DNA of 54,732 nucleotides from positions 1-54,732 of the forward strand of contig JACQZR010000056.1 of assembly GCA_016213775.1 (NCBI GenBank), written 5' to 3'. The stretch is from Acidobacteriota bacterium (GTDB lineage: Bacteria; Acidobacteriota; Terriglobia; Bryobacterales; Bryobacteraceae). The notes beneath the pieces are model-generated. The model searched no databases. It saw nothing but the letters and a program-made list of their open reading frames with translations, and was not told the origin of the DNA. Made by a program: the position numbers and the translations under genes. Shown here in pieces: positions 9,866-15,012 of the stretch (within the stretch, counting starts at the first letter, position 1; every line of letters starts with the position of its first letter).

Positions 9866-11071
9866 ATGAGTCCCGGTGTCATCCAGAGAAGCGCCGTTCC
9901 GCAAACCCGCGCCGCCGCCGCCGAGCGCCCCGTCGTCCTCGTCACCGGACCGCGCCAGGCCGGTAAAACCACACTCCTGCGCCAGGCATTCCCTCATCTT
10001 CCCTATATCTCCCTCGATCTGCCTCACCTCGCCGAGCAGGCCGAGGAGTCAGGTCTGGAGTTCCTGCGCCCCTATCATTCGCTGATTCTCGACGAGGTGC
10101 AATACGCCCCGAAAATGTTCCGCTATCTCAAACACCGCGTCGACCAGGACCGCGCCCGCAACGGCCAGTTCCTGTTGACCGGATCGCAGAAGTTCGGGCT
10201 GATGGCCGGTGTTTCCGAGAGCCTCGCCGGACGCGTGGCGGTGCTGGAGCTGCAGACGCTCTCCCTGCGTGAGTTGGAGCACCACACCGGGAAACGCGCC
10301 GAGGGCGATCAATTGCTGGAGTGGATGGTGCAGGGCGGCTATCCGGAGATTCATGCACGCGGGCTCGACCCCTATCGTTTCTACGCCGATTATGTGGCTA
10401 CCTACCTGGAGCGCGATGTGCGTCAAGTGATCGAGGTGCGTAATCTGCGCGACTTTGACCGTTTCCTGCGGCTGGCCGCCTCGCGCACAGGGCAGTTGGT
10501 TTCGTATCAGGGAATGGCCGGTGAGTTGGGCCTGAGCCCCAATACGCTAAAGGCATGGCTCGGTGTTCTGGAGGCGTCCTCCATCATCCGGCTGGTGGAG
10601 CCCTACTATCAGAACTTCGGCAAGCGCATGACCAAGACGCCCAAACTGTACTTCATGGACACCGGCTTGGCCTGTTTCCTCACAGGACTGCACTCCCCGG
10701 ACGTGCTCCACAAGAGCACGTTTCTCGGTCCGATGTTCGAGACGCTGGTGCTCGGGCAGATGGTCCGCGCCGGATGGAATCAGGGTCGCCCGCGCCAGAT
10801 CTACTTCTATCGCGATTACTACGGGACCGAGGTGGACTTTGTCATTCCGGAGGGCGAGAAACTGCGGCTCTACGAGTGCAAATGGTCGGAGATGGTCTCG
10901 CGCGAGTCCAAGGGATTTCACGCCCTGCGCGAGCTCGCGGGGAAGGAGAACATTCTCTCCGCCACCTACGTCACTCCGCTGCGCGGCAAGCGCAGGCGCG
11001 GGTCTTTCACGATCGCCGATTGTGTGGACCTGCTGTGGGAGAAACCCGGCCGCAGACGCGCCGGCTCCTAA
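9866..11071 (+). CDS. AAA-type ATPase with C-terminal DUF4143 domain
   Basis: Predicted soluble P-loop ATPase of the AAA_14/DUF4143 family (401 residues), common as stand-alone accessory genes; the role is not established. Seen: Walker A TGPRQAGKTTLLRQ (about residues 27-40), Walker B SLILDEVQYAP (72-82), sensor LLTGSQKFGLM (103-113), then a winged-helix-like part (YQGMAGELGLSPNTLKAWL) and a PD-(D/E)XK-like fold with TEVDFVIPEG and the ECK motif LYECKWSE, in which D, E and K are all kept. ATG has AGGAG nine bases upstream. Its stop overlaps that of the convergent CPBP gene. The palindrome array in front suggests tight regulation, possibly by its own product (inference). Confidence 0.85.
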   Translation: MSPGVIQRSAVPQTRAAAAERPVVLVTGPRQAGKTTLLRQAFPHLPYISLDLPHLAEQAEESGLEFLRPYHSLILDEVQYAPKMFRYLKHRVDQDRARNGQFLLTGSQKFGLMAGVSESLAGRVAVLELQTLSLRELEHHTGKRAEGDQLLEWMVQGGYPEIHARGLDPYRFYADYVATYLERDVRQVIEVRNLRDFDRFLRLAASRTGQLVSYQGMAGELGLSPNTLKAWLGVLEASSIIRLVEPYYQNFGKRMTKTPKLYFMDTGLACFLTGLHSPDVLHKSTFLGPMFETLVLGQMVRAGWNQGRPRQIYFYRDYYGTEVDFVIPEGEKLRLYECKWSEMVSRESKGFHALRELAGKENILSATYVTPLRGKRRRGSFTIADCVDLLWEKPGRRRAGS

Positions 11072-14000
11072 GTGATGTGGCGCTGGTTGTAACGGCGGAT
11101 GATCCACACGCCAACGATCAGCGCTACCGCGCATGCGAGTCCGCCATTCCAGCGCAAAAATGGCATCGGCTGTGTAAGCATAGCCGCTACTTCACCCGCT
11201 ATGACGGCCCAGAACAAGCCGACCCCGACGGAGACAGCGTCCAGCGTACAAGTCAACAAAATCAAGACCAGTGCTCCCAGGCTGAGCAGCGTGCAGACGA
11301 CCGCGAACGGCGTTTGCAGCGGCTCAGCAACGCGCGCCAATGATAACGCGAGTACTGTGGCCGTAGTTGCGATCAGGAGGCCCTTACGCCGCAGAAGAAT
11401 CAGAGATCCGCAAACGAGTGCGCCGATCAGGCAAACCGCCAGAGCAGACTGTAGTGCGGCTTCAATCAAAGAGTCGAGAGCAGGAAGTAACGTGTCCATG
11501 TCCGGCGTGGAGGCGGTGCGCCATTCCAGGTGCTGTCCGGGAGCATGCTGCCACAGCCATGCGAGCAGGGAATTCATGCTGCCTGCCAACACTGCCACCG
11601 CCGCTGCCCTCGCCAGTGACGCCTCCGGAAGGGAGAAGAGCGGAATAGCCGCTTGACGAAAAGTGTCCACCGCCAGAACCGCAGCAAACACGCCCGCGCT
11701 TGTAAGCAGGACGCCCACCGCGAGACTGGTTCCCAATCGCCCGTAATAGTTCGTCAGAGGTGTGGAAGTGTCGTAGCCGGAAAGCCATGTAGGCGCGTCG
11801 CTGAGGTGCGACACGATGGCCAGCAGCAGCGCGGCAATCGCGGCTATCGTATATGCTCTCCAGTGAAATCGCTGTTCGCGAGCGCCCAGACGACGGAAGA
11901 AAGCAGCCGTCAACGGAACGCCTATGATGCCCAACACCGCGGAAGGCAGAAACGACGTGAGGCGCGTCTTGTGGAATTCGCGCGACCAGGCTTCCGGAAG
12001 TTTGAAGAACGGACGGAATTGGCAGGGTTCGTCGCCGATCATTTGCAGCGATACACGCAGGCGCGCTTCACCGGCCGTGAATGCGGTGCTTTCCCAGACG
12101 AAAGTGTGATCGGTGCGGTTCTCGCGTTTCTCTTCCTGTGCATCCATCAGCTTGTACTGGTGAACCGCCAGCCCCTGTGCGGCAAGGTAAAGCTCACCGA
12201 TGCGTTGGGCCTCCTCCAAAGAAGGCTTCGCGCCCGGCGCCTTTTCGTCGAGAGTGTGATCCCAGCGATACACCTTGCCTTTGGCGTTCACATAGAATCG
12301 CCACTCCTCGGCATTGAGCGGTTGGAAGAAACGCACCTGCCACACGGCATGCATCAAGTGCTCCGCGATGAGTTGATTCGCGCGTTCCGGGCCGGCCTGC
12401 TGGCGCAGGTACTCGAATTCGACGGACTGCAGGTTTCCAGAGAAGTCACTTACGATGCGCCATGCGGCAGGGTCCAGCTTGCGAGCGCGCATTTCCGCTC
12501 GCGCGGCATCCTCGGCCTGCTCCCGCGTGACGTTGATGGTTAGGAATTCGCCGAATGTGCTGGGCCGCAGTAGCAGGGCCAAAACTGCAACAACGCCTGT
12601 GGCAAGGAATAGCCGGCTGGGTGGCCAAAGCATCGGGATTGGCGGCCGTTCCACTGCCGCTGGAAGCTCGGCCTCGGACGGAGTTTCCTTTTCCGGCGCC
12701 CCCTCGGATGTGACCTGCGGCCCCTTCGCGAAGCCCCCATTGCACCGGTACAGATACACGACGGCCAGCAACGGAGCCGCAATGGCCACTGCCACGATGG
12801 CGCCGTGCGCGCGATATGTCCAGCTCTCTGCCCGGAACAGCGACAGCCCAATGAGAAACGCGTCGATCATGTAGTGCCACACCAGCGTGGCAACAATGCC
12901 GTAGCGGCTCATGACAAAGCCCGCCGCCACGCCGATGATCCCCACCTCGACCCCGCGCACGTACCCTGGCTGTTGCGGATAGTTGGCATGAAGAAAGCCC
13001 CAGGTGAAGGCGGGAATCACAATTGCGAGCCACCGCAGGCGCACCAGTTTCTGCAGCATCGGTATCGCAAGATAGCGAAACCAGAACTCTTCCGCGGTTG
13101 ACGCCATAAGCGCAATGGCGAGCGGATACACCCATGGCAGCGGAGTCGCGAGCATGTCCGAATACTGAACGTCCTGCGGGCTCCAGACACCAAACTTCGC
13201 GCCGTACAGATAGAACGCCGTCAGGAAGATCAGATGCCCGGCGAACATCGTCACACCAGCCAGGGTGGCGCGGAAGAACGTGCGCGTGCCCATTTGCGCA
13301 GGCAGGAAGGCCGTATCCGGAGCGAGGTGCTGCGGCCATCCGCGGCGGTATAGCAGATAGCCCGCGGCCAGCGGCGCCGCCACATAGATCAGCACACCAG
13401 ACCCCGAGCCTAACGCCTGCAACACACCCAGCACGATCATCTCCAGCAATGTCGAAGTCGTGGACATACTGTCGATTGTGAAGGGCAAGGAATTGAGCCC
13501 GCTCAACAGATTGAAACCCGCCACTACAAGGCTCAGGATCAGCAGCGGACGCCAGGGGATGAGCCGCTTGCGCAATCCATCGAAGAGGAAGAACAGCGCC
13601 CCGGCCCCCAGCAACGCGTAGAGGCCCTGTGCAATGGACGCATACAGCTCATTGCTGGAACGAAGCTTCGAGAAGTCGCGCTGCCACTGGTCCGGGATGA
13701 AGAGATACTCGCGATAGCGGCCCACTTTATCGCCGTGGACTTCTATGACGCGCCGTATGGTGGCGTCCTTGGCGCGGAACCCTTGCTGCTCCCAGGTGAA
13801 CGAATGATCGCCTCGGTTGGGACGCGATTCCGACTCCTCTCCCACGAGTTTGTGCGGCAACGAAGTCTGGCCTTCCAGGAACGCCTGCGCGAGCAAGCGC
13901 GCGGACAACCGGTCCAGGCGCTGGCCGGGATCGGTCTCGGGAATGCGATGTTGAAAGCCGGATAGCTTTCCATCCGGCCGCAGCCACACGACGAGCTCTT

Positions 14001-14346
14001 CCTTCTCCGGCGGTTTGAACCAGCGCGCACGCCAGCGCCAGACAGGGGCGTCGCTCTGCATCAGCCGGTTCGCAGCCTCCAGGCCCAGTTCCCGCTCCAG
14101 ATACAGGCGTGCGTCGTCGTCAGGATCGAAGAGCGTAATGTTGTAGAACTTCGAGGTCGCCAGTGCGCGTGTTTTGAGGAACTCCTCAGCCTGCCGCGTG
14201 ATCTGATCGCGGGAAAGCGGTAACTTGAGCGAGGCCTGTGGAAACGCCGCATCGTAGTTGTACGACACGTATGCCGCGCTCGCCACCAATGCGAGAGCGG
14301 TACATGCGATGAAGCGTTTATCAGATACCTCTAATCTCGACCCCAT
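11068..14346 (-). CDS. Large CPBP family intramembrane metalloprotease with duplicated flanking domain
   Basis: CPBP (Rce1-like) membrane protease of 1092 residues, far longer than the usual 200-350. Seen: one N-terminal helix (about 13-30); an extracytoplasmic domain (about 45-232); membrane helices; the protease core with the catalytic EExxxR (E419, E420, R424), FLHANY (H453) and WHYMID (H491); further helices to about 595; then a second extracytoplasmic domain (606-799) clearly related to the first (NRGDHSFTWEQQGF against NRTDHTFVWESTAF, WQRDFSKLRS against WSREFHKTRL); and about seven more helices at the C terminus without protease motifs. All catalytic residues are present, so activity is likely; the substrate is unknown. 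ATG is preceded by GGTGGGA. It lies just after a terminator-like hairpin, so it probably has its own promoter. Confidence 0.85.
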   Translation of the reverse strand: MGSRLEVSDKRFIACTALALVASAAYVSYNYDAAFPQASLKLPLSRDQITRQAEEFLKTRALATSKFYNITLFDPDDDARLYLERELGLEAANRLMQSDAPVWRWRARWFKPPEKEELVVWLRPDGKLSGFQHRIPETDPGQRLDRLSARLLAQAFLEGQTSLPHKLVGEESESRPNRGDHSFTWEQQGFRAKDATIRRVIEVHGDKVGRYREYLFIPDQWQRDFSKLRSSNELYASIAQGLYALLGAGALFFLFDGLRKRLIPWRPLLILSLVVAGFNLLSGLNSLPFTIDSMSTTSTLLEMIVLGVLQALGSGSGVLIYVAAPLAAGYLLYRRGWPQHLAPDTAFLPAQMGTRTFFRATLAGVTMFAGHLIFLTAFYLYGAKFGVWSPQDVQYSDMLATPLPWVYPLAIALMASTAEEFWFRYLAIPMLQKLVRLRWLAIVIPAFTWGFLHANYPQQPGYVRGVEVGIIGVAAGFVMSRYGIVATLVWHYMIDAFLIGLSLFRAESWTYRAHGAIVAVAIAAPLLAVVYLYRCNGGFAKGPQVTSEGAPEKETPSEAELPAAVERPPIPMLWPPSRLFLATGVVAVLALLLRPSTFGEFLTINVTREQAEDAARAEMRARKLDPAAWRIVSDFSGNLQSVEFEYLRQQAGPERANQLIAEHLMHAVWQVRFFQPLNAEEWRFYVNAKGKVYRWDHTLDEKAPGAKPSLEEAQRIGELYLAAQGLAVHQYKLMDAQEEKRENRTDHTFVWESTAFTAGEARLRVSLQMIGDEPCQFRPFFKLPEAWSREFHKTRLTSFLPSAVLGIIGVPLTAAFFRRLGAREQRFHWRAYTIAAIAALLLAIVSHLSDAPTWLSGYDTSTPLTNYYGRLGTSLAVGVLLTSAGVFAAVLAVDTFRQAAIPLFSLPEASLARAAAVAVLAGSMNSLLAWLWQHAPGQHLEWRTASTPDMDTLLPALDSLIEAALQSALAVCLIGALVCGSLILLRRKGLLIATTATVLALSLARVAEPLQTPFAVVCTLLSLGALVLILLTCTLDAVSVGVGLFWAVIAGEVAAMLTQPMPFLRWNGGLACAVALIVGVWIIRRYNQRHIT

Positions 14347-14429: not shown

Positions 14430-14966
14430 TTACTTCTTCTTCACACGGCTGCAGGCCATTTCGGCGCCGCTGATGTCCACTGCGCTCCCCCCCTCTTCGA
14501 TGTAGGCGATCTTGCCTTCCATGTCGACGAGGAATGTGGCGCGGTTGGCGATTCCACGTTCTTCCATCAGCACTCCGTAGGCCTTGGCCACGCTGCGTTT
14601 TGAGAAATCGCTGAGCAGCGGGAAGGACGCTTCGGTTTGCTTGGCAAAGACTCCTAAGCTCGGCGTGTTATCCGTGCTTATACCGAACACCTGGGTGTCC
14701 ATGCCTTCGAACTTTTGGATACCAGCCTGGTACCCTTTCATTTCCTTCGTTCAGCCACCTGTGAAGGCCGCGGGAAAGAATGCCAGAATGACGTTCTTCT
14801 TTCCGCGGTAGTCGGAGAGTTTCACAGGCTTATTGGCCGTCGAGGGGAGAGTGAAGTCCGGCGCTACATCCCCGACTTTGAGATGGGTCTTGGGGGGCGC
14901 GTTTTGCGCGTGCATGCTTGCGGCCGCGAGACTGCCGGCAGCGAACAGAAATTTTCCTCGGGTCAT
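14430..14966 (-). CDS. Exported selenocysteine-containing peroxiredoxin (UGA at residue 72)
   Basis: Thioredoxin-fold peroxiredoxin (AhpC/TSA, BCP-like) predicted to reduce peroxides outside the cytoplasm. The frame runs 178 codons with one internal TGA (14751-14753) exactly where the peroxidatic cysteine belongs: PAAFTGG-U-TKEM fits the family's PxxxTxxC. Both sides are intact: [12 protein letters not shown] before, and [45 protein letters not shown] after. A 7-bp hairpin with a G in the loop lies 15 bases past the TGA, as in bacterial SECIS elements. Residues 1-21 form a signal peptide ([20 protein letters not shown]) and GGAGG precedes the ATG. C172 near the C terminus may be the resolving thiol. 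The alternative, a pseudogene with a nonsense mutation, is less likely given the codon's position and the hairpin. No selA, selB, selC or selD lies in this window. Confidence 0.85.
14717..14735 (-). promoter_or_regulatory. Bacterial SECIS-like hairpin
   Basis: On the mRNA, GGGUACC pairs with GGUAUCC (7 bp, one G-U) around the loop AGGCU. It begins 15 bases after the in-frame UGA, and the loop starts 22 bases after it. A short stem inside the coding region just 3' of UGA with a G in the first two loop positions is what SelB recognises in bacteria. No cofold calculation was run. Confidence 0.75.
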
Positions 14967-15012
14967 AAAGCCTCCAGAGTTGAAGGTATCAGTGGCCCGA
15001 TGGGTTGCGCAA

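Follow-up and report, generated by a model that had tools for sequence, protein, structure and literature searches.

A leader-bearing, AhpE-like peroxiredoxin of Acidobacteria with a predicted selenocysteine at its peroxidatic position

The stretch of acidobacterial DNA analysed here (the window, 54,732 nucleotides) carries a peroxiredoxin gene whose frame, read on the minus strand from 14966 to a terminal TAA at 14430, is open except for a single in-frame TGA at 14753-14751 (Table 1). An earlier note on this DNA had given these coordinates correctly, without a strand, and had described a frame intact on both sides of a TGA located where the peroxidatic cysteine belongs; both points hold, the codon being that of residue 72. 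As that note also foresaw for automatic annotation, a conventional ORF listing breaks the gene into two ORFs of 99 and 103 amino acids. Read through the TGA, the protein matches the AhpC-TSA domain in a profile search with 124.6 bits against a curated cut-off of 26. The residues around the UGA, P65-AAF-T69-GG-U72, conform to the peroxiredoxin motif (PxxxTxxU), and the conserved arginine is found at R142, invariant across 57 aligned rows. The motif is usually given as conserved in peroxiredoxins; in L057, L070-L078, L099, L168 and other loci from our search, its proline is replaced by V, I, K or T, as in YVLAFTGGU, YIFAFTGGU and FKEALTGGU.

Table 1. Positions in the window of the peroxiredoxin gene, its predicted elements and the adjoining gene.
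Feature	Position	Strand	Remarks
AhpE-like peroxiredoxin gene with leader, predicted selenoprotein	14430..14966	-	178 codons and a TAA stop; one in-frame UGA read through
Shine-Dalgarno-like GGAGG	14971..14975	-	identified by eye; precedes the ATG at 14966
Signal-peptide-like leader, residues 1-20	14907..14966	-	hydrophobicity tests; cleavage place guessed by eye
UGA codon for predicted selenocysteine 72 (peroxidatic residue)	14751..14753	-	frame; codon in relatives
Hairpin resembling a bacterial SECIS (stem of 7 bp, loop AGGCU)	14717..14735	-	starts 15 nt past the UGA
Codon of Cys172, proposed resolving residue	14451..14453	-	sole Cys of the protein; predicted helix 166-174
Downstream gene, 1092-aa protein with CPBP/Rce1-like protease domain	11068..14346	-	adjoins the peroxiredoxin in several relatives

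Homologues were sought at E <= 1e-20 in 61 genomes, namely the source genome and 60 relatives mostly from the same genus, family and order. A peroxiredoxin match was detected in 55 of them; counted from the match rows, 52 have the TGA form, and G025, G027 and G053 yielded solely matches without an internal stop. The best match or more was retrieved from each of the 52 genomes, nine weaker match rows being left out, and the loci named here represent the best 80 of the 239 that were confirmed. The TGA occupies the same codon in the retrieved loci of all 52, including G058, whose retrieved copy (L172) falls in a different branch and has no leader. Such recurrence of the TGA greatly exceeds what chance would give. 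At the 157 aligned places in the retrieved loci, a tally that includes the paralogues of the source genome and counts twice any gene retrieved twice, the codon is TGA in 106, TGC in 42, TGT in 8 and CGC in one, the latter belonging to a second, fragmentary match in L145. With the exception of this fragment, homologues carry TGA or a cysteine codon, as the earlier note had expected, and the hallmark of selenoproteins, an in-frame UGA with cysteine at the same place in homologues, is present. In a phylum-wide sample, 21 of 149 genomes (the source genome included) match at E <= 1e-30, and 20 of these 21 have a TGA somewhere inside the match. The peroxiredoxin family is thus widespread in the phylum, yet far from universal. 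The earlier note saw the possible novelty in a Sec-peroxiredoxin exported by an acidobacterium; the gene is no single oddity, as it belongs to a family that is widespread among acidobacteria.

A tree was computed from 129 distinct rows (92 TGA, 37 Cys) after rows below 38% identity and the CGC row had been dropped. Phylogenetic analysis grouped together 94 distinct acidobacterial rows, 83 with TGA (hereafter Sec rows) and 11 with Cys, with a support of 91/93, which is not that of a starred branch. At least seven Sec/Cys changes are required within this acidobacterial clade. This count gives no direction; the scattering of Cys rows among Sec rows suggests that the switches went from Sec to Cys. 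Tandem Sec and Cys copies, 166 bases apart in one genome, were found in L140 (G003:C135:15732-17759), and the Cys copy of this pair is devoid of the conserved hairpin described below.

The members of the clade share two features at the ends of the protein. A permissive rule, which is not a signal-peptide predictor and takes the best possible start codon with a 10-residue mean hydrophobicity of at least 1.5 before the domain, detects a hydrophobic leader in 94/94 clade rows vs 0/35 outgroup rows. A single-start rule retains the leader in 89 of the 94, with L091, L103, L117, L119 and L120 below the 1.5 mark, and 24 clade leaders contain a twin arginine. Based on this leader, the protein is probably exported. 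At the other end, the C-terminal cysteine pointed out in the earlier note is indeed there (C172), and a cysteine within the last 30 residues is found in 94/94 clade rows vs 1/35 outgroup rows. It is located 98 to 108 residues past the Sec/Cys site in the 94 clade rows and is the sole other cysteine of the domain in 91 of them, the remaining three having one more at +84. A predicted model of the window protein (pLDDT 90.8, pTM 0.84) puts Cys172 in the last helix, residues 166-174. Prx5-type peroxiredoxins, another subfamily that relies on Cys and not Sec, have their resolving cysteine about 100 residues beyond the peroxidatic one, in the last helix.

In the PDB, AhpE structures are the top fold matches of the model (TM up to 0.92 by target length, 40-42% identity), and AhpE also ranks first by sequence among the solved structures (3.4e-29), so that by both sequence and fold the closest solved relative is AhpE of Mycobacterium tuberculosis (Rv2238c). 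AhpE has a peroxidatic Cys and is described as a 1-Cys enzyme, whereas the window protein combines a predicted Sec with a C-terminal Cys; the actinobacterial relatives in the outgroup have no leader and, one outgroup row of 35 apart, no cysteine among the last 30 residues, whereas the acidobacterial clade has both. This kinship raises an alternative for the last catalytic step alone, in which the enzyme would behave as a 1-Cys-like Sec peroxiredoxin resolved by an outside thiol instead of Cys172. The nearest fold is titled 1-Cys peroxiredoxin, and the portion of PMC8945050 available to us describes AhpE as having one Cys and being reduced by mycothiol or mycoredoxin. Yet a C-terminal cysteine kept in every clade row and nearly absent from the outgroup speaks against such chemistry, which we hold to be rather unlikely. 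Resolution by Cys172 is, in our estimation, the likely course, with appreciable room for doubt.

How the UGA would be decoded was approached through the Sec machinery. The source genome is a draft of 10.96 Mb in 314 contigs, 98.48% complete. The earlier note had made its case depend on selA, selB, selC and selD, and all four are encoded: a tRNA-Sec with anticodon TCA (77.6 bits), selB (379.6 bits), selA (493.9 bits) and selD (349.7 bits), each above its curated cut-off, selD itself containing one TGA. Among the 61 genomes, SelB is above cut-off in 51 and tRNA-Sec in 53, and 50 of the 52 TGA-form genomes have one or the other. The two with neither are G017 (80% complete) and G039 (64% complete). 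Both components are also missing from G035 (99% complete), which has no peroxiredoxin copy, and from G027 (62% complete), which has a Cys form; G053 has Cys forms, no SelB, and a tRNA-Sec match of 49.5 bits, just above the cut-off of 47. Running counter to a strict link, G009, G013, G021, G026 and G031 possess SelB but no copy at E <= 1e-20, and G025 possesses SelB and tRNA-Sec yet a Cys form.

The frame would be just as open if TGA had been reassigned throughout the genome, or if a suppressor inserted a residue other than Sec at it. However, several orthologues (for example L056, L147, L154, L165 and L167) use TGA both inside the frame and as the final stop; moreover, homologues have Cys at the site and none has Trp, and the source genome is equipped for Sec. 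We consider such recoding highly improbable.

The 7-bp hairpin with loop AGGCU proposed in the earlier note, 15 bases past the TGA, was recovered when the mRNA around the TGA was folded (GGGUACC-AGGCU-GGUAUCC, 14735-14717); RNAfold additionally pairs the A with the U of its loop. A stretch of 57 nt containing the hairpin folds at -14 kcal/mol, with a z of -2.25 vs dinucleotide shuffles, 5 of 200 of which were equally stable. PMC1088965 describes bacterial SECIS elements as having a guanosine in a small apical loop, and the AGGCU loop agrees with this. Consistent with a selenoprotein gene, a SECIS-like stem-loop with an early loop G directly follows the UGA, 13 rows of the clade having a different stem-loop. 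A search of the window against Rfam gave no match above gathering scores.

To compare this region between forms, 100 synonymous-codon shuffles were generated for each of 94 distinct TGA and 40 distinct Cys sequences, outgroup included, and the hairpin region had a mean z of -1.87 in TGA sequences vs -0.59 in Cys sequences. Pairs were counted using custom scripts. For the proposed seven pairs, 68.2% of the cells pair across the 80 distinct TGA sequences of the clade vs 19.5-47.7% when the register is slid by 1 to 3, while the 11 Cys sequences reach 29.9%, within the 20.8-42.9% of their slid registers. The lower pairs fare badly when the register is fixed in this way, and the folds of many sequences include a bulged base. 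At one inner pair, 70 Sec rows show C-G (49), U-A (19) or U-G (2), the 13 Sec rows with another hairpin being left out. On the tree, about six independent pairs can be drawn for this inner pair, of which 4.8 show a joint change and 0 an opposite one (median p 0.0625). One side of the change is, in most rows, a silent change of a Tyr codon, and the other replaces Gly by Asp (YQAG/YQAD); at this place the protein sequence thus appears to follow the pairing of the RNA. All four inner pairs are complete in 57/83 Sec rows vs 1/11 Cys rows, and over seven independent pairs contrasting Sec with Cys, 4.2 differ the same way in stem completeness, 0 the opposite way and 2.8 not at all (median p 0.125). 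Neither sign test on independent pairs reaches 0.05. A generic bSECIS rule does not discriminate, as it is passed by 92/94 TGA but also 35/40 Cys sequences; requiring that one of the first two loop bases be G brings this to 85/94 vs 18/40. The Sec forms have a hairpin with paired changes that is mostly absent from the Cys forms. The 13 rows set apart above (L099, L109, L117, L119, L123 and similar) constitute a subclade with the stem CUUCCAG/CUGGAAG and a loop of about 13-15 bases, predicted to be a different SECIS shape in the same gene.

Coding constraint was estimated from the window gene and 12 same-genus copies, one of them a Cys form, with duplicates dropped and without gaps. Downstream of the TGA, nine of the 12 comparisons gave a dN of 0.05-0.18 vs a dS of 1.3-4.0; the other three had a dN of 0.49-0.63, for which the ungapped comparison of chains differing in length may be responsible. 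The dS is saturated or undefined in many of the 12 comparisons, and undefined upstream of the site in seven. Were the TGA a true stop in a broken gene, the 99- and 103-aa fragments of conventional ORF calling would be the remains of a pseudogene; the same TGA in 52 of 61 searched genomes, the low dN past it in those nine comparisons and its replacement by nothing but Cys codons, one fragment aside, make this scarcely credible. A sequencing or assembly error turning TGC or TGT into TGA, for which the draft state of the genome in 314 contigs might speak, is equally hard to believe, since many other genomes show the same TGA, and the hairpin, with its paired changes, is retained in TGA forms and mostly absent from Cys forms.

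We thus consider it very probable that the gene encodes a Sec-decoded peroxiredoxin bearing this leader, an assessment that does not extend to the part played by Cys172. SelB and Sec-tRNA(UCA) would decode the UGA at 14753-14751 under the direction of the adjacent downstream hairpin, and this insertion step is strongly supported by the sequence data: the frame and the position of the UGA, the paired changes of the hairpin, the Sec machinery and the Sec/Cys exchange. The leader and the C-terminal cysteine are conserved as well; the subsequent steps are inferred. The leader would send the peroxiredoxin out of the cytoplasm, where Sec72 would reduce peroxide and become a selenenic acid; the lone Cys172 of the same chain or of a partner subunit may then resolve it into a selenenylsulfide, presumably reduced in turn by an extracytoplasmic thiol system.

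Selenocysteine peroxiredoxins with a TxxU motif are long known, from the Eubacterium acidaminophilum enzyme and the first surveys of selenoproteomes onward (PMC1794560, PMC1088965, PMC9312934, PMC13188914). The window protein resembles the Sec-peroxiredoxin family (COG1225/PF00578) in its TxxU, its AhpC/TSA domain and its Sec at the peroxidatic place; in the parts of PMC9312934, PMC13188914 and PMC1088965 at hand, COG1225 is named Bcp, with no mention of export or of a C-terminal Cys. The earlier note named PrxU of E. acidaminophilum as an example of the established Sec-peroxiredoxins; the nearest solved relative of the window protein is AhpE. PrxU (NF040737) is a homologous peroxiredoxin, and an assignment to it was rejected, the 67.4 bits of the window protein being far below the cut-off of 270. 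In total, 15 NCBIfam models match the window protein and none does so at its cut-off. Acidobacteria were credited in 2006 with four selenoproteins of three families (PMC1794560, in part), and one acidobacterium in 2025 with three known selenoprotein genes (PMC12013277, in part). Among the papers listed in literature searches, which extended neither to supplementary files nor to most subscription journals, no title or abstract opening describes an exported Sec-peroxiredoxin or a Sec enzyme of the AhpE type that carries a C-terminal Cys. As TxxU Sec-peroxiredoxins have long been known, the novelty is a variant of a known enzyme and not a new kind of system: what appears to be new is the AhpE-like, leader-bearing combination of one Sec and one C-terminal Cys. 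It would add a sizeable branch to the selenoproteome of bacteria from soil and groundwater, a branch that is split in standard ORF calling and that no listed NCBIfam model reaches above cut-off. With the repeated Sec/Cys switches accompanied by loss of the hairpin, including the L140 pair, the reason why a peroxidase that is probably exported retains Sec becomes directly testable.

Other redoxin genes of the source genome contain an in-frame TGA as well. L020 (1471-1911, G000:C177) holds a second TGA-containing peroxiredoxin, PrxQ-like, with the sequence YPADDTPTURKQLCEL. L022 (1501-2043, plus strand, G000:C292) and L025 (1441-1971, minus strand, G000:C84) hold redoxins of the UxxC type with the sequence SADWUP[YF]CKTQLVEL, the former with a leader-like start; their NCBIfam relatives, all below cut-off, include SelL-related ones. 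We tentatively propose, as a possibility to which we would not yet commit ourselves, that Acidobacteria have an extracytoplasmic selenium redox system comprising the exported AhpE-type Sec72-Cys172 selenenylsulfide peroxiredoxin and other exported-looking SADWUPxC Sec redoxins of the same genome, with at least seven Sec/Cys exchanges in the peroxiredoxin family. If so, each of these exchanges would be a natural test of the benefit of Sec outside the cytoplasm.

Partner genes were sought by tblastn of three neighbouring proteins against the retrieved loci, many of which have only about 400 bases of flank. The upstream genes were rejected as kept partners: DUF1501 was found only in the source locus and in two distant-redoxin loci of the same genome (L021, L029), and PSD1/PSCyt2 nowhere in the retrieved loci, a weak negative given that flanks of about 400 bases are common and even 1500 may be too short. 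Of the 11 same-genus genomes that have the peroxiredoxin, the source genome included, 9 (not G001 and G004) carry a relative of the downstream CPBP/Rce1-like gene next to it, as do G020, G030 and G034. The two halves of this 1092-aa protein match the same stretches of its relatives, which suggests an internal duplication.
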